64,000 nt of DNA from Persicimonas caeni (GTDB lineage Bacteria; Myxococcota_A; Bradymonadia; Bradymonadales; Bradymonadaceae): contig NZ_CP041186.1 of assembly GCF_006517175.1 (NCBI RefSeq), forward strand, positions 1,054,001-1,118,000. Reading direction: 5' to 3'. Position numbers and translations under genes: made by a program. Position 1 is the first letter of the stretch. Each line of letters opens with the position of its first letter. Below are positions 3 through 44,109 of this stretch, piece after piece. The notes below the pieces were generated by a model. That model saw only the letters and a program-made list of their open reading frames with translations, made no database searches and was not told the DNA's origin.

Positions 3-902
3 GCGCTCGACGCCAGGTCGGACGCAGTCGAGCTATTCGAGGGCGACTTGACGAAGGCTGATAGCCTGGAAGATGTCTGCGAGGGCGTCGACGCGCTGAT
101 TCACTGCGCGTGCGCCGTCAAAGGCACTTTCGACGAATCGCAGGAATCGAGCCATATTTTCATGGAGGTCAACGTCGAGGGCACGCGCAACCTCGCCGAG
201 CGCGCGGCCGACGCGGGCATCCGCATGGTCCACCTGTCGTCGACCGCCGCCATGGGTCCGGTCACCGACACTCGGGTCGACGAGACGACCGAATGCGTTC
301 CGCAGGCGCCCTACCAGATCTCGAAGCGCCAGGCCGAGTTGGCCCTGCTCGAGCTGCACGAGCAACGCGACCTCGACGTGGTCATCCTACGCCCCTGCTT
401 GATCTTGGGTCCCGGCAAAGACGGCGGTGAGCCCCTCAAGCTGTTCAATCTGGCGCGATTCGGGCTGTTTCCGAAGATCGGCGGCAAGATGACACAGACC
501 AAGCCCCTGGTGGACGTGCGCGATGTGGTCGCCGCGTGTGCCGCGGCGCTCGAGCGGGGGCGCACCGGCGAAGTTTATCTGATTCACTCCGACGGCGGGC
601 ACACCCTCGAAGAAATTCTGGAAGTGACGCGGCGGTTGGTCGGGTCGCGCCGAAGCGGCATCCCGATTCCCACACTGCCGGTACGAGTCGCCTCGCACGG
701 CTTCGAGGCGATGGCGGCAGCCATTCCGACCTTCAACCCGCCCATCACGCCGGGAAGGCTCGACTTGCTGCTCGCCGACCGCAACATCTCGGTCGCCAAA
801 GCGCGCCGCGAGCTCGGGTTCGACCCCAAAGAACAAGATCTGTACGAGATGCTCGGACGCACTTACGTGGGGTATGTGCGCGACGGCCAGCTCAATCCTT
901 GA
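3..902 (+). CDS. NAD(P)-dependent epimerase/dehydratase (extended SDR), 5'-truncated by window edge
   Basis: The reading frame is open from the window edge, so the N-terminal Rossmann glycine motif lies outside. What is visible is typical of extended short-chain dehydrogenases: a GDLTKADSL strand/helix junction, GVDALIHCA (end of beta-4), a VNVEGTRNL helix, the HLSSTAAMG strand, and the catalytic YQISK (Tyr-x-x-x-Lys). The C-terminal half holds a substrate-binding region (PLVDVRDVVAA). The family acts on nucleotide sugars, sterols or dihydroflavonols; the substrate cannot be read here. It precedes a glycosyltransferase by 71 bp in the same direction, which makes a sugar or lipid substrate plausible. 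A TTG at 48 is in frame but is internal to the fold, so it is not the start. Confidence 0.85.
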   Translation, partial: ALDARSDAVELFEGDLTKADSLEDVCEGVDALIHCACAVKGTFDESQESSHIFMEVNVEGTRNLAERAADAGIRMVHLSSTAAMGPVTDTRVDETTECVPQAPYQISKRQAELALLELHEQRDLDVVILRPCLILGPGKDGGEPLKLFNLARFGLFPKIGGKMTQTKPLVDVRDVVAACAAALERGRTGEVYLIHSDGGHTLEEILEVTRRLVGSRRSGIPIPTLPVRVASHGFEAMAAAIPTFNPPITPGRLDLLLADRNISVAKARRELGFDPKEQDLYEMLGRTYVGYVRDGQLNP

Positions 903-26401: not shown

Positions 26402-29224
26402 TTATGCTTGGGGAGCTTCGTCGCGGCTGACGATCTCGACGGTATTGTGCTCGGCGTTCCAGCGCAGCCGCGGACAACTGCCGCCCTTCCCTTTGAGCAA
26501 CGCCTCGGTGACCGGCGAGTAGAGGAAATCTGAGACGAGCTGCTCGATGCTGCGCGCGTCGGACATCTCCGCGGCACGTTCGATAAGCCGGTCGCGAAGA
26601 GAGGCGTCGAGCGCGATATCGAGCCGATATTCGCTGCGCATGGCATCCATGAACGAGTCGATGCGACGCTCGAGCAGCTCGATAGCCGGAGACTCACCGG
26701 CACCGCCCAATTCTCGGAAGGTCACTGCAGCGTCGATATAATCGCGCAGACGGCCCGCCAGCGCCTTGTCTAGCGCGTCGAAGGCCTTTTCGTTGTCGAG
26801 TGTCTTTGTACCGGCGTCGTTGTCGGCAAAACCAATCTTCTTGCCACCTCGGCCAGTCTCCGCGTTTACCGTCAGGATGAAGAGAGCGTTACGCACATCG
26901 GCGCGATGGCCTCGTGTGTCGACGATGTCGCCCTCTTCAACAAGCCGCAACATCCGTTCTTGGATACGCTCGTGGGCGCAGTCGAAGTCCTCGAGCAGAA
27001 CCACGCTGCTCGGTCGACGGCGAAGCGGCGTCACGAAGAGATCTTCATCATCGTAGCCTACGTAGCCAGGCGGCGAGCCGATGAGCCGGCTCATGCTATG
27101 CGGCTCCTGGAAATCGGTCATGTCGAGACGCAACACGGCGGCCGAGTCGTTGAAAATCTCCTCGGCGAGCGCGCGCGCCAGGGTCGACTTGCCGACCCCG
27201 GGAGGTCCCACGAAGAGCAAAACAGCCATCGGGCGGTTGCGGTTGGCGTTGCGAAGCCGACTGCTGACGAGAGCGTGGGCGACCTGGGTGATCGCGAGAT
27301 CTTGGCCTACGACCGACTCCCCCAGCCTCTCCTCGATGCCTACCCACCAGTTGATTTCGCCCCGTAGCAAGCGGTCCAGCGGAATCCCCGTCTTCAGGAA
27401 GACTTGGCGAGCGACGTCATCACGCGTGACCAGCTGAGAGGACTCGGCATCCTCTTCACCGTCTTCGGCACCGACCAAATCGTTGGCGCGAGCGATACAC
27501 GCGTCCATCAGCAGCTTCTTCGATTTATCGGGCAGTCGCTGCTCGGGCAGGTATCGCACCGACAACTCGATGGCTGACTCGATAGCCGTTTCGTCGACGT
27601 CGACATCGTAATCGGCTTCCAAATCGGGGATGAGCGCCTCGAGGATCTTGGCGACGACCTCATGGGCCGGCTCCTTGATCTCGATACGCTCGAAGCGACG
27701 CTTGAGTGCCGGATCTTGCTCGATCCATCGGTGGTATTCAGCTTCGGTGGTCGCGCCGACCACGGCAATGTCGCCCGAGGCGAGCGCGCGCTTGAAGTGA
27801 TTGGGCACTTCGGCGGGGGTATTGCTACCCGAGCGCGGAGCGAAGACCGCGTGAGCCTCATCGATGAACAAAATGACGTCTTTGCTCGCCTCCTCCAGCA
27901 AACTCTTGATGCGCGATTCGAGGTCGCCGCGGTAGCTCGTCCCGCTCATCAAACTCGCGCCGTTGAGCTCCACGACGCGGTAGCCCTGCAGCTTTCGAGG
28001 CACCTGTCCGGAGGCGATGCGCTGGGCGAGGCCGACGGCCAAGGCCGTCTTACCCACGCCGGCTTCACCGGTCAGCAACGGGTTTCGCTGCTCGCGACGA
28101 AGCAGCACATTGACCACGCGCTGCAGTTCTTTTTCGCGCCCGACGATTTCGGGCAACTTCCCCTCGAGCGCTTCTTCAGTCAGGTCGCGCCCGAGCATGT
28201 CGAGGGTCGGGGTGGGCTGGCGCTTGGCGGCAAATTCGATTGCAGCTTCGACCGGAAGCGAATGCTCGAGCACCTTCGGCTCGCCGAGCGCATTGCGGAT
28301 CTCAGACTCCAGGCCCAGCGCCTGGATCAGCTCGAGGCTGGAGCCGCCGTCGTCCAGGAAGCCTTCGATCAGGTGCGTCTCGGTAATCGGGCCGTTGTTG
28401 GCCTGTTTGGCCGAGAACGACAGCATGCGGATCATGCGCGGGGTGAGCGTCTTGCGGCCCACCAAAAATTCGGGGATCGAGCTGGGCTTGCTGCCGATGA
28501 GGCGCAAGAGTTCTTCTCGAAGACGCCCCGGCTCCAGTCCACGTGCCTTGGCCGAGCGCCAGATCGTCGAATTTTTGACCGAGCAGAGCATCGCGATCAG
28601 GTGCGGGGTGCCCAAAAACGGCGTGCCGTGGGCGGCGGCGAGTTTCATCGCCCCTTGCAAAATCCGCCAGGTCGACTCGTGGAACATCGCCTCGCGCAGC
28701 AGGCCCTTTTCGTCAAAGAGTTGATCGCCTTTGCCCTCGCTCAGCCGGCGGATCGCCCAGCGCACCGACGCTGACTCGACCGCCTCGGCACGCCAGGTGA
28801 CGCTGCGTACCAGATCGAGTTCGCGCACGAGATCGCCATTTCTGGCCTGAGCCTGATGCCACGCTTCCATCAGTATACGCGTGAAACCACGCGAGAACGA
28901 CGTGCGCTCGAGCACCGGGCTCTTGTCGGAGGGGTCCTCGTCGATTTCGCGAGAAAGAAGCTGCAGGCGAGGCAGTACATCACTGTCGTCGACGACGCCG
29001 TCGGTCCCATCGGCTACCAGACCGGCCAACTCTTCATGGCCTCGCTCCAGCAGCACAATGAGCAAATCCAGCGGCAGGAACATGCGCCGGTCGACCTCGG
29101 CCAGCCACGCGCGAATCCCCTCGAGAACTTGCTGGGCCTCGGGAGAAAAGAGTTCTTGGCGCAGGCTACCCTGGTCGTCGAACAATGGATCGGTTCCGGC
29201 TGACTCCATAAGCGTGCGGTTCAC
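26402..29224 (-). CDS. Clp-type double AAA+ ATPase with three N-domain-like repeats and altered second Walker B
   Basis: The protein has about 940 aa (GTG 29224, or ATG 29209 giving 935). The first 345 residues hold three segments resembling Clp N-domain halves; the first two share the pattern DxLFDxxGxLRxxxF and the third is FLVGRKTLTPRMIRMLSFSA. AAA+ module 1 has GEAGVGKTA and ILFIDEAH. Only a short acidic linker follows it, so the ClpB coiled-coil middle domain is missing. Module 2 has GPPGVGKST and GYVGYDDEDLF, but Walker B reads VVLLEDFDCAH instead of VVLLDEIEKAH: the Asp-Glu pair is swapped. No ClpP-docking loop is obvious. It could be a substrate-remodelling ATPase of the ClpA/ClpB class with a weakened or specialised second ring. 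Confidence 0.85.
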   Translation of the reverse strand: MNRTLMESAGTDPLFDDQGSLRQELFSPEAQQVLEGIRAWLAEVDRRMFLPLDLLIVLLERGHEELAGLVADGTDGVVDDSDVLPRLQLLSREIDEDPSDKSPVLERTSFSRGFTRILMEAWHQAQARNGDLVRELDLVRSVTWRAEAVESASVRWAIRRLSEGKGDQLFDEKGLLREAMFHESTWRILQGAMKLAAAHGTPFLGTPHLIAMLCSVKNSTIWRSAKARGLEPGRLREELLRLIGSKPSSIPEFLVGRKTLTPRMIRMLSFSAKQANNGPITETHLIEGFLDDGGSSLELIQALGLESEIRNALGEPKVLEHSLPVEAAIEFAAKRQPTPTLDMLGRDLTEEALEGKLPEIVGREKELQRVVNVLLRREQRNPLLTGEAGVGKTALAVGLAQRIASGQVPRKLQGYRVVELNGASLMSGTSYRGDLESRIKSLLEEASKDVILFIDEAHAVFAPRSGSNTPAEVPNHFKRALASGDIAVVGATTEAEYHRWIEQDPALKRRFERIEIKEPAHEVVAKILEALIPDLEADYDVDVDETAIESAIELSVRYLPEQRLPDKSKKLLMDACIARANDLVGAEDGEEDAESSQLVTRDDVARQVFLKTGIPLDRLLRGEINWWVGIEERLGESVVGQDLAITQVAHALVSSRLRNANRNRPMAVLLFVGPPGVGKSTLARALAEEIFNDSAAVLRLDMTDFQEPHSMSRLIGSPPGYVGYDDEDLFVTPLRRRPSSVVLLEDFDCAHERIQERMLRLVEEGDIVDTRGHRADVRNALFILTVNAETGRGGKKIGFADNDAGTKTLDNEKAFDALDKALAGRLRDYIDAAVTFRELGGAGESPAIELLERRIDSFMDAMRSEYRLDIALDASLRDRLIERAAEMSDARSIEQLVSDFLYSPVTEALLKGKGGSCPRLRWNAEHNTVEIVSRDEAPQA

Positions 29225-29314: not shown

Positions 29315-30031
29315 TTAGCTGTGCTCCTTCTCGGCGATGACCACCAAGAAGCCGCCGAAATACTTGAGCAAGCTGTCACGCCCGACGAACTCGAGCTTTC
29401 GAAGCGCTCGGCCAACCAACGGTACTTTGTGAGCCGCGGCCGCAGGCGTGAAGATCCGAATGCCCGAGTAATCGAGCACCTTCAAATTCTCGGGCATGCG
29501 CCGACTCAGGTCGATGGCGTGGTCCCAACGCGTGTAGATGGCGCTCTCATCGGTCTTTTTCGAGATTTTGCCCGGCCCGGCAGCGCGCTTGGCCAGATAG
29601 CGCAGGCTGTAGGGGTTGTAGAACTCGAGCAGCAAATGGCCGCCGCGACGGGTCACCCGCGCCATCTCACGCAGGGCGCGATCGATATCTTTGATGTGGG
29701 CGAGCACCTTGAAGCTGTAGACGACGTCGAAACTCTCATCGGCGAACGGCAAGTCGGTCACCGAGCCCTGGGCTACGTCGAGCCCACGAGCCACGGCCTG
29801 GTGCAGCATGCCTTTGCTGATATCGATGCCCACGGCGCGCTTGGCCCGCTGAGCGACCCGATCGAGGATCAACCCGGTGCCGCAGCCGACCTCGAGCACA
29901 TCTTTGCCGCCCACGTAATCGGCGAGCAGGTCGACTTCGAGGTCGTCGATCATAGCGTGGTAGCCGCGGTCTCGCCCACGCTCGTACCATTCGGCAAATT
30001 CGTCGTAATAATCGCGGTTGGCTTTCTTCAT
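29315..30031 (-). CDS. Class I SAM-dependent methyltransferase
   Basis: About 238 aa from the ATG at 30031. Motif I VLEVGCGTGL, the acidic end of beta-2 (VGIDISKGML), VTDLPFADESFDVVYSF (motif II/IV) and the post-motif LREMARVTRRGGHLLLEFYNP match the Methyltransf_11/UbiE-like group. It is soluble and cytoplasmic. The substrate cannot be inferred. An earlier in-frame ATG at 30067 is possible; neither has a clear ribosome binding site. It is divergent from the truncated kinase fragment that starts near 30186. Confidence 0.85.
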   Translation of the reverse strand: MKKANRDYYDEFAEWYERGRDRGYHAMIDDLEVDLLADYVGGKDVLEVGCGTGLILDRVAQRAKRAVGIDISKGMLHQAVARGLDVAQGSVTDLPFADESFDVVYSFKVLAHIKDIDRALREMARVTRRGGHLLLEFYNPYSLRYLAKRAAGPGKISKKTDESAIYTRWDHAIDLSRRMPENLKVLDYSGIRIFTPAAAAHKVPLVGRALRKLEFVGRDSLLKYFGGFLVVIAEKEHS

Positions 30032-30185
30032 TATGTGGAAGTCTCGAGGTCTTGGAGTCTGAGGCATCGAAACGGCTGTCGGCACGTGCCTGTCGAATCG
30101 CCGTTCGAGATGATAACGTGAGCGGTTGTACCAGATACCTGACACTGCAGGCAATTTGCGCTAATCTACGCGTTGTCAGGCCATT

Positions 30186-30353
30186 TTGAGAACCAGTCAA
30201 CCCATCAATTTTGGAGTCGAGTGCATTGGTCGCACAGAGCGCCTCGCCCAACCCGAAGATTTTGGCAAATATCAATTGGTCGCCCGGCTGGCCCACGGCC
30301 GCATGGGGGGACTTCTACAGGCCAAGGTGCAGGAGGTAGAGGGGCCCGAGTAG
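30186..30353 (+). pseudogene. 5' fragment of a Ser/Thr kinase gene, cut by the left duplicated arm
   Basis: From a TTG at 30186 the frame reads 55 codons and includes DFGKYQLVARLAHGRMGG, the glycine-loop start of a Hanks-type kinase, then QAKVQEVEGPE. The similarity breaks at 30344, exactly where sequence identical to the inverted arm begins, and a stop follows at 30351. No invariant Lys, HRD or DFG remains. It is distinct from the kinase in the arms (different residues around the glycine loop). The rest of this gene is not in the window. The start codon is uncertain. Confidence 0.7.
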
Positions 30354-32316
30354 GTTGCCGCTGCGTCGCACTTTTGGGCGACCAAATCACGCAACGCTTG
30401 AAGGTGATTGCCGCTCCACACCACTTCGCCGATAAACTCGCCGGGGTTGTGGCCTTGGCGCTTCAAGTAGGCGCGCGGCAGGAAGTTACCGGTGGTCGAG
30501 TTGCGGTCTGTGAAACAAAAGGTTTTTGCCCTCCAGGTCGGCCAACGAGCTTGACTTGGGAGTCCATGCGGGTTAGCAAGAGGGCGTCGCTCGACGTCGA
30601 GCCGCCGAACTGGCGAATGGCGAGCAGGCGGATCTTGGGCTCCGCTTTCTTGGTCTGCACGTACAGCAGGGGAGGCAAGATGGCGATGTCGTAGTCGCCG
30701 TTACGCACCCCCTTGGACAACTCCTCATAGCTGCTCGTGACTTCCATCGGCACCGGACGCCCGAGCTCTTTCTCCATATACGCTTGGATGGGCTGAATCT
30801 CCTTTTCGAGCACATCGGGCGTCGCGATCGGAGCCCAGCCGACGCGGATGGGATCGCCGATGAGAATGGGAGACGCCTTTTCCTCACCGAGCAGCTTTTG
30901 GCCCAGCTCACTTCCCTTGATTTGAGGCCAGAAGAAGAAAGCTGCGGCGATGACGCTTGCCACGGTCACGCCGGCGATCAACGCCAGCGTCTTGCCGTTC
31001 GAGTCATCAGCGGCGCGACCGCCGATGTTCGGCGGCGGGGCTCCCATATCGATGCTCTGCTCATCCATCGTCGCGGTCGTCCGCAGATCGGACTGGGCGC
31101 TTGGATGAGAGCCGGACTGCGAGTGGGAGTCTCCTGCGTCGAACGCCCGCACCCCGGAGGGGAGGCTGCCGCTTCCCGACGGCGAGCGGCGCAACTCGGG
31201 GAATGAACCACTGTCAGCAGGACGATCGACGACCGTGGCGATATGATCTTGGCCCTGTCGCTGGGAGCCGCTGACTGCCGAGCGCGAGTCCGAGCCCGTC
31301 ACGTGAATCAGGTTGCGCTTTTCGTTCGAGGTCAGGGAGCGCTCCAGGGCGTCGTGCATCGTCGCCTGACGCTCGGCCAACTCCTCGCCGGCGATCTTTT
31401 CGAGAAACTCCGCCAGAACGTCTTCGCCGAACGCAAGCCCGCTGGCACGTGCGGCTTGGATAAGCGCACGGCGCATCTGCTCGGCGGTCTGATAGCGTTG
31501 GTCGCGATCTTTGACCAAGGCCTTGAGCACCACGCGATCGACCACATCGGGCACCGCGGGATTGTAGGTGCTCGGAGGCTCGGGTTGCTCTTGGACGACC
31601 GCCCGCATCATGTCGAGATCTTTTTCGCGCTTGAAGAGGCGACGATCGGTCAGCGCCTCCCACAGCACGATGCCGAGTGCAAAGATGTCCGCTCGCCGGT
31701 CGAGCTTCAGCCCCTTGCACTGTTCGGGAGACATGTAGGCGAATTTGCCTTTGAGGTGACCGGAGTGAGTCGCCTCGACGCCCTGGGATGCCTTGGCCAC
31801 GCCAAAGTCGAGTACTTTGACGAATCCTTCGGTGGTGCACATCAGGTTGTGCGGGGAGACGTCTCGGTGAATGAGCTCGAGGGGGCTGCCCTCCAAGTCA
31901 CGAAGCTCGTGGGCAGCGTGCAGGCCTCGACAAGCTTGGTCGACGACTGACAGAGCCACCTGCACCGGCAGGGAGGTGCCGTCGCGCTCGGCGAGCACCT
32001 GCATTTCACGCACCGTGCTGCCGTGGATATACTCCATGGCAATATAGTAGTCGCCATTCTCTTCGCCGAGCTCGAAGATTTGGACGACATTGGGGTGGTT
32101 GAGTCTGGCGATGATCCTTGCTTCCCGAAGGAACATGTCGATAAAGGAAGGATCGTCGGCCAGATGAGGCAGGATGCGCTTGATGACGACGAGGCGCTCC
32201 AGGCCGGCAAGGCCACGCTCGCGGGCAAGAAACAGCTCGGCCATGCCCCCGGTGGCCAGTTTGGTCACCAGTTCGTACTTGCCAAGCATCACGGGAGCTG
32301 TATTCGTGTCAGACAC
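30344..32316 (-). pseudogene. Truncated, frameshifted copy of the Ser/Thr kinase-PhnD fusion
   Basis: Identical to the intact gene at 41809-44109 for its first 587 codons (kinase domain, membrane helix and half of the binding domain). Two extra T (30551-30552 and 30523-30527) then shift the frame within the PhnD-like domain, and a stop falls at 30463. Even without them the copy lacks the last 110 codons because the arm ends at 30344. If expressed, it would give an intact kinase and membrane segment with a broken sensor. Confidence 0.9.
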
Positions 32317-32431
32317 GCACGCCTCGGTGTCGTTCGCGGCTCCAGAGCAGTCGAGTTGCAGAGAGTCTCATGGCCATCGTAGTCGGAATTGGCTCGTTCG
32401 CAAAGTATCCTCATGTTACAACGGAATCGCT

Positions 32432-32688
32432 ATGAAAGGATTTCATCGATCGTGGTGTTGAGTCTCGCTGTGAGCCTGAGTCTGGGCGCACTTGCGGGGT
32501 GCAAAGCCGAAGAATGTCGCCAGATGTCTCGCTGTTGCGAGGCGATCAAAGATGAGGAAGGAGTCGGCAGCGCCTGCGGCGAGATTGCTCAAGGCGTCAA
32601 AGACCCGGATACCTGCCGCACCATCCTGCGTACGGTCGAGGCGATGTACGAAGATCGCGAAGAAGATCTGCCGAAGGCGTGCCAGTAG
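32432..32688 (+). pseudogene. Frameshifted copy of the 85-aa Cys-rich lipoprotein gene
   Basis: Loss of one A in the run after the ATG (32435-32437, AAA instead of AAAA) turns the start MKRISS into MKGFHRSW and leaves the rest of the gene without its start. The body of the frame is identical to the intact copy at 41436-41693. Confidence 0.88.
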
Positions 32689-32744
32689 GTTGGGCGCACC
32701 TCTTTTGTCGTCTTGTTTTTTGTCGTCTTGGAAGTGAGTCAACG

Positions 32745-33680
32745 ATGTCTCAGGACGCCCTCAAAGCCGTCGACGTGCTCCAAGAAGTGTTGGCCGCGCA
32801 GCCTTGGCAGCCAACCGAAGATCCCGCTGTCGAGGGGCGCGGGCTGCGTGTGCGCGTGCACCTCGACGATCAGCGATCAGCATTGCTGTACGTGTGGGAC
32901 GAAGCACTGCTCGCCAAGCGGGCGGCGTGGGCTCATCGCCCCGAGCGTGCGGGGATGCTCTTTGCGGTGCCGGAGCTGATCGAATCCGGTCTAAAGTGGT
33001 GTCTCGTCGACGACGTCGACGGCATGCCGCTGACGACTTATCTCGAAAGGGAAGGGGTGGGTTCGGTGACCGAACTCGACGCGGAGCGAGCTCGGGGGTT
33101 GGCGCGTGAAGCTGGCGAGCTCGCGCGGAAGCTCCACGAGATCGAGGTTCCGCGCGAGTATGGCGACATGGTCGATCCCGATCGAGACGGCCATATTGGC
33201 CGCTGGAACACTTTCAACGGCTATATCGCTCACCGCCTCGAGCATTTCGCCGAGCAAATTCGCCATCGCGACCTCGACGAAGAGGTTCGGAGCCAGCTTC
33301 TGGCAACGATAGGAGACCTACGCGCGGAGCTTGCGGCATTTCACCCGCGCCACGCGCCCAGCCTCAACCACGGTGCCTTCGGCCCGCAGCACTTTTGGGT
33401 CGACGAGACAGGCCGTACGATCACCGCACTGACCGGATTCGACGGAGCGCGACTCCTCCCCCCCGAGGCCGATCTCGCCCGCCTGTTGTGGCTCGACGGC
33501 CTGGCTTGTGATGATGGATTGGTGCGCTCGTTCTACGCCGGATACGGTGCCGCCCGCACGATGGATCTGCAGCGCCGCGAGCGCTTCTACCGGCGCGTTG
33601 CCGCGCTCGAGGCGCTCGTCGAGTCGACGGGTCGGCGTAACTTGACGGACGCCGAGTTGGTGGCTCTCTCCTCGCCCTGA
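32745..33680 (+). CDS. Aminoglycoside-phosphotransferase-fold pseudokinase, copy 1 (left arm)
   Basis: This 311-aa frame is identical to the right-arm copy at 40444-41379 and is the only complete gene in the left arm without a frameshift. See that entry for domain content. The start ATG 32745 lies about 5 bp after a GGAAGTGAG stretch. Two copies of TTTGTCGTCTTG (about 32704-32730) sit directly upstream. If the left arm is real the cell has two identical copies in opposite orientation. Confidence 0.85.
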   Translation: MSQDALKAVDVLQEVLAAQPWQPTEDPAVEGRGLRVRVHLDDQRSALLYVWDEALLAKRAAWAHRPERAGMLFAVPELIESGLKWCLVDDVDGMPLTTYLEREGVGSVTELDAERARGLAREAGELARKLHEIEVPREYGDMVDPDRDGHIGRWNTFNGYIAHRLEHFAEQIRHRDLDEEVRSQLLATIGDLRAELAAFHPRHAPSLNHGAFGPQHFWVDETGRTITALTGFDGARLLPPEADLARLLWLDGLACDDGLVRSFYAGYGAARTMDLQRRERFYRRVAALEALVESTGRRNLTDAELVALSSP

Positions 33681-33683
33681 TGC

Positions 33684-35344
33684 TCAATCGGAAAACTTAC
33701 AGGTTCCTGGTCCACTTGCCTTCGTGATGCCATCGGCCGCGATGTGGAGGAGTACTTGCCCTCCCTTCGGGTGGTGGAGGCGAAGATGGTTGGTCCTCGG
33801 GTCATACGTCGCCGTTGCTGGTTCGTTGTAGTTGGTGTGCAACTCGAGCGCGCAGCGCGCGCGCCGTATCCTTCGGGGCACCTCGTCGTCAGCGTTCGAA
33901 TAGAGCGTGGACGATGGTCGCTGGCCCGGGGGTGCTCGACCGAGTCACGGTAAACCAAGTGTTGGGTGTGTTCGCACGCGCGAAGACTACTGGATCGTTC
34001 TCATTGACGGGGCGCAGGCGCTGCAGCTTTCCGGGATCCGATGCATCCGCGACTGCCACTTGCTCATCGTGGAACGGGAGAGCGAAGACGAGTCCTTTTT
34101 CAAGGCCCACCACGGCGGTGCGTGCGTGGTAGGATCGAGGTGCCGGGCGAATCTCCTCCCTGTCGATGCACGCCAAGACCTCAACCTTGACGGGCCACGG
34201 TCTGCACCACGGTCTTTCCGGGCGCTCTCCCACGGATCTCCTCGAGGTGGGCCGAGTTGTCGCAGCCCTAAAAGATACGCATCTCGGTTGAGGGCGTGCA
34301 TTGACTCGTTTCCGAGCAGCAAACCGTCCTACGGTGCCTCGGGCTCGGTAGTCGACGCCGCCGGATGGCGTGCTCGTATCGAAGAGGTGCAGATAGGTCT
34401 CGTCGGCGTCTGACGTGTAGGGATCGCTCGCCCAGGCCGCCAGCAGGGAGCTTCCCCACGACACTAGCTTCCAATTTCCTCCCAGAAATCCCTGCCTGGA
34501 GGTACTTCGCCCCGTGCGCAGGTCGATTGCATTCAGGATCAGCAGACTGGCATGTTTGACGCGGAGGGGCGCAGTGGATGGGCCGGGAAGGGCGATATCC
34601 TTGCAGCCGAGACGTTCGTGCTGCAGCTTGCCGCTACGTCGCGATTGGAGCACAGGAAGGGTCAACTGGCGATACTCATCGGCATTCTCACCCCAGTACG
34701 TGTCGAGCCACGCCTTGCGACGCTCGGCGCGCTGCTCGTAAGTCAGTCTCTTCTCTTTCTCGGTCGACAGCTTTCGTTTCTCATTGGCCGAGAGCTTTCG
34801 AAGTCGACCCTCAATCGGGGTGCTCGATGCGAACAGGAGGTGCCCGTCGCGCACATCGGCCCACGTTATGCGGCCCGGAGTCTCGACATGCGCGACCTGC
34901 CGAGCGTGGGTAGGAGACTCGAGTCGCAACAGATCGATACGGGAGCGAAAGGTCTGCCACCAGGGCCGCCCTGGCTTGTAGGACGTACGCTCGACATTCA
35001 CGAGCACCAGGTAATGGTGATCGCGGGTGAACGAACCCAACCAAGAGCCGACGAGCGAGTACGGCGCCGTCCAGATGCTGACTTTGTCGGTTTGCTGCGC
35101 TCCCGTCTCTTCTGACTCGAGAACAATGCTCGAACCGTCAATGCCGTAGGGTCGGTCGGCGACGACAGTTTGGGATACACCTGCGAACGGCCACAGTGCG
35201 ATGCTCGAGCTCTTCTCTGCGGATGTCGGCGGTTGCCAGGCGTCGTCCCGGCGGGGAGCGAGAAATGGGGCCGCCATCTGGGTGTCGGTGTGCCGGAGAA
35301 TGAGGAGTTGCCCCCGACTCGGACGGTAGGGCCCGCTCAGCATT
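33684..35344 (-). pseudogene. 5'-truncated, multiply frameshifted copy of the 633-aa lipoprotein gene
   Basis: The copy starts inside the native gene, at the codons for MLSGPYRPSRG, and so lacks the signal peptide and lipobox. Three one-base insertions (34328, 34229, 34183) shift the frame and restore it 50 codons later with one extra residue. A fourth (33909) shifts it again and stops it at 33889, about 70 codons early. The intact parent is at 38539-40440. Confidence 0.9.
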
Positions 35345-36886
35345 GTTAACGACCGAGCCGAGTGCACCGTCGACGACGATTGCCCCTCGGGGCCGTACGT
35401 GTGCGTCGATCAGGTGTGCAAGCGTGAAGGCTTCGACGCAGGCGACATCGGCAACGACTCCGGCGACCAAGATACTGGCGTGCCTGAGGACACCTTTGAC
35501 GACGCCTCCGACGACGAGGGGCCCCCGAGCGTCGAGAGTGTCACGCCTGCAGCCGGCGCCACCGACGTCGCGACGGATACCACCATCGAGATCGTCTTCA
35601 GCGAGCCGATGGATCCCTTCACCATCAACTTCTACTCGATCGTGCTGCGCGACACGAATAACCGCGAAGTGGACATCACGGTCACCTACGACGCGGACGC
35701 ACAAACCGCGACCGTGACGCCCCAGATCAATCTGCAGCCGGCTGCTTCCTATCGACTGCGGGTCGAGTCCCTCGCCCGAGACATGGCGGGCAACGGCCTG
35801 GACCCCGACTTCGAGGCGACCTTCTATACCGCCTACGACGAGCCGGCCGAGCATACGACCCTGGCGGAGACGTTCGCGCCGGTCATCTACCAGGGCATCG
35901 CCGATTCCCAGGACAGCGGACCCAACGGCGATATCCCGACGCTGCTCGACTTCGACGACAACCTGTCGGCGGCCGACAACGGCGCCAACTCGCGCCGAAG
36001 CGGCACCACGACCGAGGCCCACGTCTATTATCACGTGACCGAGTCGGCTCAGTACTACTTCCTGCACTACATCCTGTACTACCCGTCTCGACTCGACGTC
36101 GACGATCAGTCGCGCGCCGAGCACGATTTCGCCGGTGCGGTCTTCGTGGTCGACAAGTCCGACAACAGCCTGCTGTTGGTCGAAGGAGTCAGCTTGCTCG
36201 ACTCCGGCGAGGTCACCTCGGCCTACAAGCCCGACGGCAGCCCCGTGTCGCTCCCCGGCGGCAATATCGGCAACATGACGCTGGCCAGCTTCGGCGCCGA
36301 CAAGCTCGAAGACGGCACCCACTACCCGATGTACGTGCCCGGTGGCGTCCACGAGACGTGCAATTGGCATAAATCGGGCAGCAACTCGCGTTGTCTGCAC
36401 AACCCGGGGCAGTTCCGCGGCACCGACGGCGGTGGCGTGGTGATGCGTCACGGCGACACCGCCCAGAGCTACGACGAGGCCACCGAAAACCAGGATTCGG
36501 GTCACCTGGAAATGACCTACAAGCTGGTTCCGCTGGCTTCGACCGTCTGGGCTTATCGCGGCAGCTACGGCAGCGGAGGGCTCTTCGAGATTCCGTTCAT
36601 CTACGAGCCCACGGGCACCGATCGCCCCATCGGCTTCAATCCGCAGGACGCCCACGTGTTGCCGCGGCGACTGCAGAGCGGCGCCACCGAAAACTTCGGC
36701 CGCACGCCCTTTTTCTGGCTGCCGAGCCCCGGCGAAGACAATCACGGTCAGTGGCTCATGGACCCGGTGTACATCTTGCCCAACCGGTATAACTTCGGAG
36801 AGTCGGTCACGACCGAGTACTGCTACAACTTCTTTTTCGACATCGATAACCGCTCCAGCTCCATCGAGGGCTGCGGTGGCAACTAA
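35345..36886 (+). pseudogene. Secreted Ig-like (Big_5-type) protein lacking its 5' end
   Basis: The frame is open from the inner end of the left arm (35345) for about 513 codons, but no start or signal peptide remains; a GTG at 35399 lies inside the domain. The visible start is Cys-rich (ECTVDDDCPSGPYVCVDQVCK), followed by an acidic linker and one SbsA/Big_5 Ig-like domain (SVTPAAGATDVATDTTIEIVF to about ARDMAGNGL). The remaining 370 residues are beta-rich with HVYYHVTESAQYYFLHYILYYPSR and AEHDFAGAVFVV, faintly like the DUF946/Vps62 group; I would not assign it. The missing N-terminus should be a lipoprotein or Sec signal. The last 11 bp overlap the next gene. The core is intact, so loss came from the junction. 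Confidence 0.75.
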
Positions 36887-37277
36887 GCTGAGCCAATTCA
36901 TGTTCGATCGACGCCCCACAACGTTCGTCAGCGCGCTGTTCGCCGCGGCGCTCTTCGTGTTCGCCGGCTGCGCTTCGGAGCCGAAGCCCAAGCCCCAGAA
37001 GGTCGAAAAGGCACCGGCGCAAAAGAAGAAGGCCGTCCAAGTCAAAGAGCCCACGCCCGAGGAGTTGGCAAATAGCCCGTGCGGCAATCCTGACTGGGCC
37101 CAACTTCCTCCCGGCGCCGAGGACAAGGCGCCCTCGAAGGAAGCCCAACCGGCCGAAGAAGGCGCCGAGCCGGCAGATACGCCCCCGTCCGACGCGCAGC
37201 CTGCCGAAGAGGCTACCGGGGAAGGCGAACAGTCGAGCAAGGTCGAGCTGTACCCCAAAGATCAGCCCTGCACCTGA
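36876..37277 (+). CDS. Predicted lipoprotein, Pro/Glu/Ala-rich
   Basis: The 133-aa protein starts at GTG 36876, overlapping the previous stop, or at ATG 36900. It has a signal peptide with lipobox VFAGC (about residue 32), then a Lys/Pro/Gln-rich stretch, a short segment with one of its two remaining Cys (NSPCGNPDW), an Ala/Glu/Pro-rich low-complexity tail and a final CT with the other Cys. No fold or family is recognised. The stop is 4 bp before the moeA ATG, so the two are translationally close, although no functional link is evident. Confidence 0.7.
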   Translation: MATKLSQFMFDRRPTTFVSALFAAALFVFAGCASEPKPKPQKVEKAPAQKKKAVQVKEPTPEELANSPCGNPDWAQLPPGAEDKAPSKEAQPAEEGAEPADTPPSDAQPAEEATGEGEQSSKVELYPKDQPCT

Positions 37278-37281
37278 CAAC

Positions 37282-38523
37282 ATGAAACGATTTATCACCG
37301 TCGAAGAGGCGCGCCAGCAGATCCTGGAGCGCCTTCCTCGTTTGTCCACCGAGCGCATTTTCCTCTCGCAGGCGCTCGGGCGCATCCTCGCCGAGTCCGT
37401 CGAGGCGCCGACCGACTCTCCACGCTTCGATAACTCGGCGCGCGATGGCTACGCGCTGCGCTTCGACGATCTCGAAGGAGACCGCCCTACTCTGTCGGTC
37501 ATCGGCACCGCCGCAGCCGGCACGATCAGCGATCTGCACGTCGAGCCGGGTACGGCCGCGCGCATCATGACTGGCGCTGTGGTCCCCGAAGGCGCCGACA
37601 CCATCGTGATGCAGGAGTATTGCGAGGTCGACGAGGACGCCGGCACCGTCACTGTGCTCGAGGTTCCCGAAAAGGGTCGGGGCGCATGGGTGCGCAAGGC
37701 CGGCGAGAATATGGCCGCAGGCGAAGCCGTGCTCGAGCCGGGCGCTCGCCTCGGCGCCCCCGAGGTGGGTCTGCTGGCGAGCTTCGGTCGCTCGGTCATC
37801 GAGGTCTCGCGCCGCCCCCGCGTCGCTATCGTGAGCACCGGCGATGAATTGGTCGAACTCGACCAAGAGCCTCAACCGGGCCAGATCATTAACAGCAACG
37901 CCTATATGCTCGAAGCCCTCGTTCACCAAGCAGGTGGTGAGGCGGTGGTCCTGCCACCGGCTGCCGACACTGAGGAGGCCGTGCGTGACACCTTCGAGCA
38001 AGCGTTGCAGTCGGCCGACATCGTGGTGAGCAGCGGCGGCGTGTCGGTCGGCGACTTCGACATCACCCGCGAAGTGGTCGACGAGCTGACCGGCGGCATG
38101 AACTTCTGGAAGATTCGCATGAAGCCGGGCAAGCCGCTCGCCTTCGGCACCGCCGACACCGACGGGCGAGATGTCCCGCTCATCGGCCTTCCGGGCAACC
38201 CGAACTCCTGCTTTGTCTGCTTCCACCAATTCGTGCGGCCGGCGCTGGCGGTCATGCAGGGCGTCGCCCGCGACGGCGTCGTCCCGAGGCGCCTCGACGC
38301 GATTCTAGCTGGCCCCGTGCAGACCACGCCCAAACGCCGTGTCTACCTGAGCGGCACATTGCGCGGCCGTGTGGGCGACAAACCGGAGTTTGTGCCCTTC
38401 GACAACCAAAACTCGGGCAACTTACGCCTCTTCTGTGGGGCGGAGGCGTTCGGCGTTTGCGAAGAAGGTGTGGCGAGGATGGAGGCCGGGGATGAGATCG
38501 CCGTCGAGTTGATTGAACTCTAG
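37282..38523 (+). CDS. moeA: MoeA, molybdopterin molybdenumtransferase
   Basis: The 413-aa enzyme inserts molybdate into adenylylated molybdopterin to give the molybdenum cofactor. Family blocks in order: FDNSARDGYAL, GTAAAG, RIMTGAVVPEGADTIV, RKAGENMAAGE, VAIVSTGDEL, INSNAYML, SSGGVSVGDFD, MKPGKPLAFG, GLPGNPNSCFV, and a C-terminal domain IV (SGTLRGR to the end). The length matches MoeA (about 410). No other molybdenum cofactor gene is in the window. It lies in the unique core between the two inverted arms, so it would be inverted by recombination between them. Confidence 0.95.
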   Translation: MKRFITVEEARQQILERLPRLSTERIFLSQALGRILAESVEAPTDSPRFDNSARDGYALRFDDLEGDRPTLSVIGTAAAGTISDLHVEPGTAARIMTGAVVPEGADTIVMQEYCEVDEDAGTVTVLEVPEKGRGAWVRKAGENMAAGEAVLEPGARLGAPEVGLLASFGRSVIEVSRRPRVAIVSTGDELVELDQEPQPGQIINSNAYMLEALVHQAGGEAVVLPPAADTEEAVRDTFEQALQSADIVVSSGGVSVGDFDITREVVDELTGGMNFWKIRMKPGKPLAFGTADTDGRDVPLIGLPGNPNSCFVCFHQFVRPALAVMQGVARDGVVPRRLDAILAGPVQTTPKRRVYLSGTLRGRVGDKPEFVPFDNQNSGNLRLFCGAEAFGVCEEGVARMEAGDEIAVELIEL

Positions 38524-38538
38524 TCAGACGGAATTGGG

Positions 38539-40440
38539 ATGATCGCTGGACGTCGAATGCCGAATCCGCTGCGTGACGTCGCTCTTTTCGTCGTGCTCGC
38601 GGCGCTTTCGACCGCTTGCGGCAATTCGCAGTCGTATCGTTCGTCCCCGCCCCTACCACCGATTGAAGTCTCGACACCATCGCTTTCGGCAGAGCAACGC
38701 GCAGCGTCGCAAGCCATGGCGCTGCGGCGAGCTCGGGGCTGCGACGATGTGGCCCGGGCACTCGCCAATATCGACGCCGAACAAATGCTGAGCGGGCCCT
38801 ACCGTCCGAGTCGGGGGCAACTCCTCATTCTCCGGCACACCGACACCCAGATGGCGGCCCCATTTCTCGCTCCCCGCCGGGACGACGCCTGGCAACCGCC
38901 GACATCCGCAGAGAAGAGCTCGAGCATCGCACTGTGGCCGTTCGCAGGTGTATCCCAAACTGTCGTCGCCGACCGACCCTACGGCATTGACGGTTCGAGC
39001 ATTGTTCTCGAGTCAGAAGAGACGGGAGCGCAGCAAACCGACAAAGTCAGCATCTGGACGGCGCCGTACTCGCTCGTCGGCTCTTGGTTGGGTTCGTTCA
39101 CCCGCGATCACCATTACCTGGTGCTCGTGAATGTCGAGCGTACGTCCTACAAGCCAGGGCGGCCCTGGTGGCAGACCTTTCGCTCCCGTATCGATCTGTT
39201 GCGACTCGAGTCTCCTACCCACGCTCGGCAGGTCGCGCATGTCGAGACTCCGGGCCGCATAACGTGGGCCGATGTGCGCGACGGGCACCTCCTGTTCGCA
39301 TCGAGCACCCCGATTGAGGGTCGACTTCGAAAGCTCTCGGCCAATGAGAAACGAAAGCTGTCGACCGAGAAAGAGAAGAGACTGACTTACGAGCAGCGCG
39401 CCGAGCGTCGCAAGGCGTGGCTCGACACGTACTGGGGTGAGAATGCCGATGAGTATCGCCAGTTGACCCTTCCTGTGCTCCAATCGCGACGTAGCGGCAA
39501 GCTGCAGCACGAACGTCTCGGCTGCAAGGATATCGCCCTTCCCGGCCCATCCACTGCGCCCCTCCGCGTCAAACATGCCAGTCTGCTGATCCTGAATGCA
39601 ATCGACCTGCGCACGGGGCGAAGTACCTCCAGGCAGGGATTTCTGGGAGGAAATTGGAAGCTAGTGTCGTGGGGAAGCTCCCTGCTGGCGGCCTGGGCGA
39701 GCGATCCCTACACGTCAGACGCCGACGAGACCTATCTGCACCTCTTCGATACGAGCACGCCATCCGGCGGCGTCGACTACCGAGCCCGAGGCACCGTAGA
39801 CGGTTTGCTGCTCGGAAACGAGTCAATGCACGCCCTCAACCGAGATGCGTATCTTTTAGGGCTGCGACAACTCGGCCCACCTCGAGGAGATCCGTGGAGA
39901 GCGCCCGGAAAGACCGTGGTGCAGACCGTGGCCCGTCAAGGTGAGGTCTTGGCGTGCATCGACAGGGAGGAGATTCGCCCGGCACCTCGATCCTACCACG
40001 CACGCACCGCCGTGGTGGGCCTTGAAAAAGGACTCGTCTTCGCTCTCCCGTTCCACGATGAGCAAGTGGCAGTCGCGGATGCATCGGATCCCGGAAAGCT
40101 GCAGCGCCTGCGCCCCGTCAATGAGAACGATCCAGTAGTCTTCGCGCGTGCGAACACACCCAACACTTGGTTTACCGTGACTCGGTCGAGCACCCCCGGG
40201 CCAGCGACCATCGTCACGCTCTATTCGAACGCTGACGACGAGGTGCCCCGAAGGATACGGCGCGCGCGCTGCGCGCTCGAGTTGCACACCAACTACAACG
40301 AACCAGCAACGGCGACGTATGACCCGAGGACCAACCATCTTCGCCTCCACCACCCGAAGGGAGGGCAAGTACTCCTCCACATCGCGGCCGATGGCATCAC
40401 GAAGGCAAGTGGACCAGGAACCTGTAAGTTTTCCGATTGA
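38539..40440 (+). CDS. Lipoprotein of 633 aa, beta-rich, family unknown
   Basis: The start is ATG 38539 or ATG 38557 (MPNPLRDVALFVVLAALSTAC), either giving a lipobox STAC. The mature protein is beta-rich with repeated hydrophobic strands separated by polar turns (GQLLILRH, DGHLLFASST, LVSWGSSLLAAWASD, YLHLFDTSTP, GLVFALPFHDEQVAVAD), suggestive of a propeller similar to the secreted Beta_propel group. A basic helical insertion (about residues 270-310, Lys/Arg/Glu-rich) interrupts it. It starts 16 bp after moeA. Its first 82 codons are outside the duplicated arm and the rest inside, showing that the right arm is the native copy. It ends 3 bp from the convergent pseudokinase gene. Confidence 0.75.
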   Translation: MIAGRRMPNPLRDVALFVVLAALSTACGNSQSYRSSPPLPPIEVSTPSLSAEQRAASQAMALRRARGCDDVARALANIDAEQMLSGPYRPSRGQLLILRHTDTQMAAPFLAPRRDDAWQPPTSAEKSSSIALWPFAGVSQTVVADRPYGIDGSSIVLESEETGAQQTDKVSIWTAPYSLVGSWLGSFTRDHHYLVLVNVERTSYKPGRPWWQTFRSRIDLLRLESPTHARQVAHVETPGRITWADVRDGHLLFASSTPIEGRLRKLSANEKRKLSTEKEKRLTYEQRAERRKAWLDTYWGENADEYRQLTLPVLQSRRSGKLQHERLGCKDIALPGPSTAPLRVKHASLLILNAIDLRTGRSTSRQGFLGGNWKLVSWGSSLLAAWASDPYTSDADETYLHLFDTSTPSGGVDYRARGTVDGLLLGNESMHALNRDAYLLGLRQLGPPRGDPWRAPGKTVVQTVARQGEVLACIDREEIRPAPRSYHARTAVVGLEKGLVFALPFHDEQVAVADASDPGKLQRLRPVNENDPVVFARANTPNTWFTVTRSSTPGPATIVTLYSNADDEVPRRIRRARCALELHTNYNEPATATYDPRTNHLRLHHPKGGQVLLHIAADGITKASGPGTCKFSD

Positions 40441-40443
40441 GCA

Positions 40444-41379
40444 TCAGGGCGAGGAGAGAGCCACCAACTCGGCGTCCGTCAAGTTACGCCGACCCGTCGA
40501 CTCGACGAGCGCCTCGAGCGCGGCAACGCGCCGGTAGAAGCGCTCGCGGCGCTGCAGATCCATCGTGCGGGCGGCACCGTATCCGGCGTAGAACGAGCGC
40601 ACCAATCCATCATCACAAGCCAGGCCGTCGAGCCACAACAGGCGGGCGAGATCGGCCTCGGGGGGGAGGAGTCGCGCTCCGTCGAATCCGGTCAGTGCGG
40701 TGATCGTACGGCCTGTCTCGTCGACCCAAAAGTGCTGCGGGCCGAAGGCACCGTGGTTGAGGCTGGGCGCGTGGCGCGGGTGAAATGCCGCAAGCTCCGC
40801 GCGTAGGTCTCCTATCGTTGCCAGAAGCTGGCTCCGAACCTCTTCGTCGAGGTCGCGATGGCGAATTTGCTCGGCGAAATGCTCGAGGCGGTGAGCGATA
40901 TAGCCGTTGAAAGTGTTCCAGCGGCCAATATGGCCGTCTCGATCGGGATCGACCATGTCGCCATACTCGCGCGGAACCTCGATCTCGTGGAGCTTCCGCG
41001 CGAGCTCGCCAGCTTCACGCGCCAACCCCCGAGCTCGCTCCGCGTCGAGTTCGGTCACCGAACCCACCCCTTCCCTTTCGAGATAAGTCGTCAGCGGCAT
41101 GCCGTCGACGTCGTCGACGAGACACCACTTTAGACCGGATTCGATCAGCTCCGGCACCGCAAAGAGCATCCCCGCACGCTCGGGGCGATGAGCCCACGCC
41201 GCCCGCTTGGCGAGCAGTGCTTCGTCCCACACGTACAGCAATGCTGATCGCTGATCGTCGAGGTGCACGCGCACACGCAGCCCGCGCCCCTCGACAGCGG
41301 GATCTTCGGTTGGCTGCCAAGGCTGCGCGGCCAACACTTCTTGGAGCACGTCGACGGCTTTGAGGGCGTCCTGAGACAT
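40444..41379 (-). CDS. Aminoglycoside-phosphotransferase-fold pseudokinase, copy 2 (right arm)
   Basis: The 311-aa protein has the C-lobe pattern of APH/choline-kinase-like enzymes: AREAGELARKLHEIEVPREYGDM, then LNHGAFGPQHFWVDETGRTITALTGFDGA and PPEADLARLLWLDG. Against the usual LxHGDxxxxNxxVD...IDFD the catalytic Asp is Ala211, the Asn is His and the metal-binding Asp is Gly, so all three catalytic positions are lost. The N-lobe (residues 1-110) has Lys58 near the position of the ATP lysine but the pattern is weak. It is probably a binding or scaffold protein. It is 56 bp downstream of the small lipoprotein gene and probably cotranscribed with it. Confidence 0.75.
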   Translation of the reverse strand: MSQDALKAVDVLQEVLAAQPWQPTEDPAVEGRGLRVRVHLDDQRSALLYVWDEALLAKRAAWAHRPERAGMLFAVPELIESGLKWCLVDDVDGMPLTTYLEREGVGSVTELDAERARGLAREAGELARKLHEIEVPREYGDMVDPDRDGHIGRWNTFNGYIAHRLEHFAEQIRHRDLDEEVRSQLLATIGDLRAELAAFHPRHAPSLNHGAFGPQHFWVDETGRTITALTGFDGARLLPPEADLARLLWLDGLACDDGLVRSFYAGYGAARTMDLQRRERFYRRVAALEALVESTGRRNLTDAELVALSSP

Positions 41380-41435
41380 CGTTGACTCACTTCCAAGACG
41401 ACAAAAAACAAGACGACAAAAGAGGTGCGCCCAAC

Positions 41436-41693
41436 CTACTGGCACGCCTTCGGCAGATCTTCTTCGCGATCTTCGTACATCGCCTCGACCGTACGCAGGA
41501 TGGTGCGGCAGGTATCCGGGTCTTTGACGCCTTGAGCAATCTCGCCGCAGGCGCTGCCGACTCCTTCCTCATCTTTGATCGCCTCGCAACAGCGAGACAT
41601 CTGGCGACATTCTTCGGCTTTGCACCCCGCAAGTGCGCCCAGACTCAGGCTCACAGCGAGACTCAACACCACGATCGATGAAATCCTTTTCAT
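41436..41693 (-). CDS. Small Cys-rich lipoprotein
   Basis: The 85-aa precursor MKRISSIVVLSLAVSLSLGA ends in lipobox LAGC (Cys24). The mature 62 residues have six further Cys (EEC, RCC, SAC, DTC, KAC) and an even mix of charged residues, so a disulfide-bonded, exported helical domain is likely. No family is recognised. It is divergent from the kinase-PhnD gene across 115 bp and upstream of the pseudokinase gene, so coregulation with the kinase is possible. Confidence 0.78.
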   Translation of the reverse strand: MKRISSIVVLSLAVSLSLGALAGCKAEECRQMSRCCEAIKDEEGVGSACGEIAQGVKDPDTCRTILRTVEAMYEDREEDLPKACQ

Positions 41694-41808
41694 AGCGATT
41701 CCGTTGTAACATGAGGATACTTTGCGAACGAGCCAATTCCGACTACGATGGCCATGAGACTCTCTGCAACTCGACTGCTCTGGAGCCGCGAACGACACCG
41801 AGGCGTGC

Positions 41809-44109
41809 GTGTCTGACACGAATACAGCTCCCGTGATGCTTGGCAAGTACGAACTGGTGACCAAACTGGCCACCGGGGGCATGGCCGAGCTGTTTCTTGC
41901 CCGCGAGCGTGGCCTTGCCGGCCTGGAGCGCCTCGTCGTCATCAAGCGCATCCTGCCTCATCTGGCCGACGATCCTTCCTTTATCGACATGTTCCTTCGG
42001 GAAGCAAGGATCATCGCCAGACTCAACCACCCCAATGTCGTCCAAATCTTCGAGCTCGGCGAAGAGAATGGCGACTACTATATTGCCATGGAGTATATCC
42101 ACGGCAGCACGGTGCGTGAAATGCAGGTGCTCGCCGAGCGCGACGGCACCTCCCTGCCGGTGCAGGTGGCTCTGTCAGTCGTCGACCAAGCTTGTCGAGG
42201 CCTGCACGCTGCCCACGAGCTTCGTGACTTGGAGGGCAGCCCCCTCGAGCTCATTCACCGAGACGTCTCCCCGCACAACCTGATGTGCACCACCGAAGGA
42301 TTCGTCAAAGTACTCGACTTTGGCGTGGCCAAGGCATCCCAGGGCGTCGAGGCGACTCACTCCGGTCACCTCAAAGGCAAATTCGCCTACATGTCTCCCG
42401 AACAGTGCAAGGGGCTGAAGCTCGACCGGCGAGCGGACATCTTTGCACTCGGCATCGTGCTGTGGGAGGCGCTGACCGATCGTCGCCTCTTCAAGCGCGA
42501 AAAAGATCTCGACATGATGCGGGCGGTCGTCCAAGAGCAACCCGAGCCTCCGAGCACCTACAATCCCGCGGTGCCCGATGTGGTCGATCGCGTGGTGCTC
42601 AAGGCCTTGGTCAAAGATCGCGACCAACGCTATCAGACCGCCGAGCAGATGCGCCGTGCGCTTATCCAAGCCGCACGTGCCAGCGGGCTTGCGTTCGGCG
42701 AAGACGTTCTGGCGGAGTTTCTCGAAAAGATCGCCGGCGAGGAGTTGGCCGAGCGTCAGGCGACGATGCACGACGCCCTGGAGCGCTCCCTGACCTCGAA
42801 CGAAAAGCGCAACCTGATTCACGTGACGGGCTCGGACTCGCGCTCGGCAGTCAGCGGCTCCCAGCGACAGGGCCAAGATCATATCGCCACGGTCGTCGAT
42901 CGTCCTGCTGACAGTGGTTCATTCCCCGAGTTGCGCCGCTCGCCGTCGGGAAGCGGCAGCCTCCCCTCCGGGGTGCGGGCGTTCGACGCAGGAGACTCCC
43001 ACTCGCAGTCCGGCTCTCATCCAAGCGCCCAGTCCGATCTGCGGACGACCGCGACGATGGATGAGCAGAGCATCGATATGGGAGCCCCGCCGCCGAACAT
43101 CGGCGGTCGCGCCGCTGATGACTCGAACGGCAAGACGCTGGCGTTGATCGCCGGCGTGACCGTGGCAAGCGTCATCGCCGCAGCTTTCTTCTTCTGGCCT
43201 CAAATCAAGGGAAGTGAGCTGGGCCAAAAGCTGCTCGGTGAGGAAAAGGCGTCTCCCATTCTCATCGGCGATCCCATCCGCGTCGGCTGGGCTCCGATCG
43301 CGACGCCCGATGTGCTCGAAAAGGAGATTCAGCCCATCCAAGCGTATATGGAGAAAGAGCTCGGGCGTCCGGTGCCGATGGAAGTCACGAGCAGCTATGA
43401 GGAGTTGTCCAAGGGGGTGCGTAACGGCGACTACGACATCGCCATCTTGCCTCCCCTGCTGTACGTGCAGACCAAGAAAGCGGAGCCCAAGATCCGCCTG
43501 CTCGCCATTCGCCAGTTCGGCGGCTCGACGTCGAGCGACGCCCTCTTGCTAACCCGCATGGACTCCCAAGTCAGCTCGTTGGCCGACCTGGAGGGCAAAA
43601 CCTTTTGTTTCACAGACCGCAACTCGACCACCGGTAACTTCCTGCCGCGCGCCTACTTGAAGCGCCAAGGCCACAACCCCGGCGAGTTTATCGGCGAAGT
43701 GGTGTGGAGCGGCAATCACCTTCAAGCGTTGCGTGATTTGGTCGCCCAAAAGTGCGACGCAGCGGCAACCTACTCGGGCTCGTTTCTGACCGCAGGAAAA
43801 TTCGGCGTCCCGGTCGGAAAGATCCGCCAACTCGCGATCACGGGCCACGTGCCCCAAGATTCGGTGGTCGCAGCCCCGGACACCCCTGACTCCGTCGCCA
43901 AGGATCTGGAGCGTGTGCTGCTCGACTTCGATCCCAAAGAGGACGCCGGGGTCGAAACCGTCGGGGAAATCCTGCAGATCACCGGCTTTTCGGACGGCTC
44001 CGACGAGGCGTTCGATGATCTACGCGATGCGGTGGAAAATAACGACGAGCTGCCCGAACGTCTGGCGCCCAAGGAAGACGGCGCTCAAGCCGAAAAGGGT
44101 AAAGACTAA
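41809..44109 (+). CDS. Receptor-like Ser/Thr kinase fused to a PhnD-like periplasmic binding domain
   Basis: The 766-aa protein starts at GTG 41809. Residues 10-280 are a complete Hanks-type kinase: glycine loop ATGGMAE, VVIK (Lys46), HRDVSPHN (His150, Asp152), DFG (Asp170) and MSPEQ. Residues 290-440 are a polar Ser/Arg/Gly-rich juxtamembrane stretch. A single helix lies at 444-464. Residues 485-740 match the phosphonate/phosphite-binding PhnD family: RVGWAPIATPDVLEKEIQPI, LGRPVPM, NGDYDIAILPPLLY, SLADLEGKTFCFTDRNSTTGN and VVWSGNHLQAL. The likely topology is a cytoplasmic kinase with an extracytoplasmic oxyanion or small-ligand sensor. All catalytic residues are present. Its stop is 3 bp from the convergent HD-GYP gene. 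Confidence 0.9.
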   Translation: MSDTNTAPVMLGKYELVTKLATGGMAELFLARERGLAGLERLVVIKRILPHLADDPSFIDMFLREARIIARLNHPNVVQIFELGEENGDYYIAMEYIHGSTVREMQVLAERDGTSLPVQVALSVVDQACRGLHAAHELRDLEGSPLELIHRDVSPHNLMCTTEGFVKVLDFGVAKASQGVEATHSGHLKGKFAYMSPEQCKGLKLDRRADIFALGIVLWEALTDRRLFKREKDLDMMRAVVQEQPEPPSTYNPAVPDVVDRVVLKALVKDRDQRYQTAEQMRRALIQAARASGLAFGEDVLAEFLEKIAGEELAERQATMHDALERSLTSNEKRNLIHVTGSDSRSAVSGSQRQGQDHIATVVDRPADSGSFPELRRSPSGSGSLPSGVRAFDAGDSHSQSGSHPSAQSDLRTTATMDEQSIDMGAPPPNIGGRAADDSNGKTLALIAGVTVASVIAAAFFFWPQIKGSELGQKLLGEEKASPILIGDPIRVGWAPIATPDVLEKEIQPIQAYMEKELGRPVPMEVTSSYEELSKGVRNGDYDIAILPPLLYVQTKKAEPKIRLLAIRQFGGSTSSDALLLTRMDSQVSSLADLEGKTFCFTDRNSTTGNFLPRAYLKRQGHNPGEFIGEVVWSGNHLQALRDLVAQKCDAAATYSGSFLTAGKFGVPVGKIRQLAITGHVPQDSVVAAPDTPDSVAKDLERVLLDFDPKEDAGVETVGEILQITGFSDGSDEAFDDLRDAVENNDELPERLAPKEDGAQAEKGKD

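Follow-up and report, generated by a model that had tools for sequence, protein, structure and literature searches.

Comparison of the window (the whole 64,000-nucleotide stretch of Persicimonas caeni DNA analyzed here) with itself by BLASTN identified one repeat pair, in which 30344-35344 on the forward strand matched 43779-38784. The coordinates of the two arms, of their differences and of the surrounding genes are given in Table 1. The left arm is 5001 bases long and cuts one gene on either side, namely the gene for a Ser/Thr kinase (STPK1), of which a stub is left, and the gene for a Big_5 lipoprotein. A second kinase, STPK2, lies at the outer edge of the right arm; its phosphonate-type periplasmic binding domain is linked to the kinase through what is likely a membrane segment, an architecture unusual for a sensor kinase and conserved in the family. 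Near the start of the window, ARAGORN reported a tRNA with a two-base anticodon (677-752, minus strand) that had no Rfam support at the gathering score and is probably spurious.

Table 1. Features of the repeat pair and its surroundings (positions in the window; for indels, the position and change in the left arm relative to the right arm)
Feature	Position	Strand	Remarks
Clp-like AAA protein gene	26402-29224	-	conserved neighbor
Methyltransferase gene	29318-30154	-	divergent from STPK1; conserved neighbor
STPK1 stub	30213-30343	+	about 40 codons; start approximate; kinase orthologs of relatives 1064-1094 aa
Left arm	30344-35344	+	reverse-complement copy of right arm; 7 single-base indels, 0 substitutions; very likely an artifact
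Indel 1	30523		+T, run of 4 to 5
Indel 2	30551		+T, 1 to 2
Indel 3	32434		-A, run of 4 to 3
Indel 4	33909		+G, 1 to 2
Indel 5	34183		+A, 1 to 2
Indel 6	34229		+C, 2 to 3
Indel 7	34328		+C, 1 to 2
Single-copy spacer	35345-38783	+	Big_5 lipoprotein gene without start, MoeA, first 245 bp of 633-aa ORF
Big_5 lipoprotein gene	35348-36886	+	5' end cut by left arm
MoeA	37282-38523	+	
633-aa lipoprotein-like ORF	38539-40440	+	intact across inner edge of right arm; left-arm copy with four indels
Right arm	38784-43779	+	taken as native copy; all frames open, both edges within intact ORFs
APH-like phosphotransferase gene	40444-41445	-	identical in both arms
Small lipoprotein gene	41436-41696	-	left-arm copy lacks one A of second codon
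STPK2, Ser/Thr kinase with phosphonate-binding domain	41809-44109	+	intact across outer edge of right arm

The alignment of the two arms comprised 5002 columns with no mismatches and seven gaps. A base-by-base alignment showed that the left arm has six extra bases and lacks one, so that the seven one-base indels, net +5 and unaccompanied by any substitution over 5 kb, that a preliminary description of this DNA had claimed were found again. Each indel had also been said to lie next to an identical base, which is true of all seven, and most of them to lie in homopolymers, which is a loose wording: two of the seven alter a run of four and one extends a pair to three, but four double a lone base. 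Doubling of lone bases is more typical of PacBio CLR insertions than of homopolymer-length error. Four indels fall in the 633-aa ORF, two in the kinase/phosphonate-binding gene (both insertions, in a copy that is also truncated) and one in the small lipoprotein gene (site near 41690), while the APH-like gene is untouched, bearing out the earlier statement that three of the four genes in the left arm are broken.

Since the right-arm frame is open at all seven indel sites, the errors were assigned 7:0 to the left arm, a split that has a two-sided p of 0.016 if error rates are equal in both arms. The absence of substitutions among seven changes has a p of about 1e-5 if 80% of mutations are substitutions. 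As a control, the 464 kb around and including the window were compared with themselves (flanking 400 kb scanned; 5 kb masked). The other long repeats in this region had mismatches and gaps in the proportions 81 vs 4, 25 vs 13, 7 vs 0 and 59 vs 3, and no second inverted pair of such size was found in the 464 kb. In the entire 8.05 Mb of the organism's own genome there were no copies beyond the two arms. Mutational decay of the left arm in a real duplicate could account for the breakage of three of that arm's four genes. However, none of the seven changes is a substitution, whereas the other repeats in the region differ mainly by substitutions, in agreement with the preliminary argument that decay would have brought substitutions too, and we find this reading scarcely credible. 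Direct repeats of 0.6-1.1 kb with 90-99% identity, lying a few kb apart and differing mainly by substitutions, were also seen at 855938-860515 and 961957-965205 of the genome.

The indel-only, insertion-biased and one-armed pattern of differences is of the sequencing-error type and supports the earlier proposal of an uncorrected long-read consensus. Residual indels of PacBio CLR or corrected reads have the same character, consisting of indels only, biased toward insertion and often doubling the neighboring base, with no substitutions. The present case differs in that the errors occur only within one arm and at the very end of its left flank, while the other conserved genes examined are clean. 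Strain YN101, the probable source of this DNA, was sequenced on Illumina HiSeq and PacBio platforms; the reads were assembled in SOAPdenovo 2.04 and Celera Assembler 8.0, and GapCloser 1.12 was used for closure (PMC7460792). An Illumina-only route has also been described for it (PMC7188933). Two accessions exist for the strain, CP041186 (PMC7188933) and CP042468.1 (PMC7460792), and the sequencing methods described for them differ. The assembly, at 8,047,206 bp, is 100 bases shorter than the 8,047,306 given in PMC7188933.

The gene order of relatives was used to determine what would be expected at the site of each arm. In two genomes (G004, loci L026 and L029; G005, loci L027 and L028) the order is Clp-like gene, methyltransferase, STPK1, a bracketed segment, Big_5, MoeA, STPK2 and HD/GAF. 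A third (G006, locus L025) shows the same order from the methyltransferase, at which the locus stops, through to HD/GAF, except for an additional gene next to STPK1. The bracket, measured from the part of STPK1 seen in the window to the part of Big_5, is about 4.6-4.8 kb long in these three related genera and holds the remainder of STPK1, a LolC/E-type permease encoded on the opposite strand and then the signal-peptide end of Big_5. The STPK1 of relatives contains kinase, AAA and TPR regions, and two of its orthologs are 48% identical over their whole length; Big_5 in relatives has about 50-70 further N-terminal residues, including the signal peptide. A kinase of about 1,070 aa with AAA and TPR regions beside a LolC/E permease is a family-conserved arrangement (L026 5619-8813; L025 15307-18591).

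In the window, the 5.0-kb arm stands in place of the 4.6-4.8-kb bracket, with STPK1 and Big_5 both cut and an order kept by relatives interrupted. Comparison with these gene orders marks the left arm as foreign to its site. With the arm removed and the flanks joined, neither cut gene was restored by the longest forward frame spanning the join, so the arm is a substitution and not a clean insertion. At the right arm, the kinase that crosses the outer edge can be aligned to those of relatives along almost the whole of its length. Relatives have no conserved counterpart of the 633-aa ORF at the inner edge, where the argument is the continuity of the ORF. On these grounds we regard the right arm as native.

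The bracket genes were then sought in the organism's own genome, which is one contig of 8,047,206 bases. No LolC/E ortholog was found there; the best match is a 39% paralog at 7.37 Mb, and relatives also carry a paralog of this kind. The ortholog itself is present in 10 of 11 genomes of the same family with 60-75% identity to the G006 query, and the only one without it is a draft of 1,270 contigs. It occurs at 40-59% identity in other families of the class, and the G008 copy is located at a different place in that genome. Likewise, the own genome lacks the STPK1 body, and the sole syntenic match there is a stub of 44 residues; the same search returned more than 100 kinase-like matches. The genus is represented by one genome only. 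A search of genome_contigs, in which the own genome may be left out, gave no match to an exact 33-base probe, and a protein search of genome_contigs with Big_5 found no relative.

The stub of STPK1 provides further evidence on the quality of the sequence at the left junction. It has ATT at the position of the relatives' ATG, and within the last ~50 bases before 30343 a +1/-1 frame change is needed to read the GDVYKAK of relatives. At the stub end, ...LAHGRM and QAK share one frame and GDFY lies in another, while the relatives are continuous (GDVYKAKSHGVEG), and SHG, which is invariant in relatives, is replaced. Judged by the sequences of relatives, errors at 30220-30343 reach beyond the left arm into its flank, their number in these ~50 bases being inferred. 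About 13 kb of conserved coding sequence elsewhere in the window showed no frame break, and the breaks before the left junction resemble a contig end of very low depth. Neither the overwritten genes nor the frame breaks outside the arm had been mentioned in the preliminary description.

A real and recent replacement could also have produced this arrangement. After a template switch at short homology, replication would have run 5 kb in reverse along the nearby right arm before rejoining, at the cost of the STPK1 body, LolC/E and the start of Big_5, and the indels would be residual sequencing errors. The near-perfect identity of the arms suits a recent event, and the own genome has other FtsX/LolC-like paralogs. 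The start of the arm has a short likeness to the native continuation (11 of its first 17 bases match that of L026, counted by eye), which fits a microhomology-mediated event in the cell and is a point against an artifact. MMBIR/FoSTeS-type template switches likewise have two joins, an inverted copy of a neighboring stretch and a deletion at the target, but they would not yield indel-only differences in one arm and would be unlikely to remove a conserved Lol permease. The event requires that a gene retained by 10 of 11 family members was lost, and Lol permeases are essential in model Gram-negative bacteria. Residual errors would be expected on both arms, yet all seven are in the left, and the frame breaks just outside the arm point instead to a contig end. 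We therefore consider such a replacement improbable. Were it true, the strain would now be without this LolC/E permease and without a large Ser/Thr kinase, and lipoprotein export would be left to a distant paralog, an outcome that we doubt to the same degree.

If part of the culture carried an inversion between 30343 and 43779 and the assembly combined it with the native order, this would explain the first join, at which 30343 meets the complement of 43779 with the geometry of an inversion end. However, alignment of the ends of this outer junction detected neither homology between the flanks nor an inverted repeat at 30343 and 43779, the second join (35344/35345) is left unexplained, and the bracket, which should then be present somewhere in the assembly, is absent. 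A mixed inversion thus appears highly improbable. A hairpin or missed-adapter read was rejected on its layout, since arm, reversed spacer, spacer and arm would be expected and a different layout was seen. A mobile element or plasmid was rejected as well: the arm genes include no transposase or integrase, there are two copies only, the ends carry no repeats and blastn gave no plasmid match. A genuine inverted duplication would combine normal consensus quality with divergence by substitutions, a combination that was not found here.

The preliminary description had left it open whether the left arm is a real but unpolished duplicate or an artifact. The arm replaces a conserved segment of ~4.7 kb and cuts a gene at each end, which moves the balance toward the artifact. 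We think it very likely that the left arm is an assembly artifact, in which a redundant long-read segment occupies the gap left by a real, unassembled segment of ~5 kb. The true order would be the Clp-like gene, the methyltransferase, full-length STPK1, LolC/E, complete Big_5, MoeA and the native region of the right arm. The assembly would have broken around STPK1, LolC/E and Big_5, leaving a gap of ~5 kb, and this gap would have been filled or bridged by a long-read segment of about 99.86% accuracy, corrected but unpolished, that originated 8 kb downstream and was placed in reverse. The join may have been made by gap filling or by a chimeric corrected read, and the lost segment is presumably present in the cell and was dropped by the assembler. 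A misplaced, unpolished segment would explain the type of error and why it is limited to one arm, as well as why arm and bracket are of similar length and why two genes are cut. Short reads would have been unable to mend the left arm, since the error-free right arm offers them a better match.

False inverted duplications from chimeric or palindromic reads (PMC6218980) resemble this locus in that nearby sequence is repeated in reverse and is absent in truth. A difference is that a simple palindrome has no spacer, whereas the present arms lie on either side of 3.4 kb of single-copy sequence and the copy takes the place of a segment. A point against the artifact is that two non-homologous joins are needed, and a simple hairpin or missed-adapter read yields none such.

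The left arm is probably not a real feature of the genome, and as such would be ordinary as biology but useful as a correction to a public genome. About 5 kb of real sequence is probably concealed by the artifact. The genome, although published as complete, would thus probably lack a conserved lipoprotein-export gene and a kinase while showing false truncated and duplicated genes, and any claim about gene loss or copy number in this predatory lineage for which the assembly is the basis needs to be checked at this locus.
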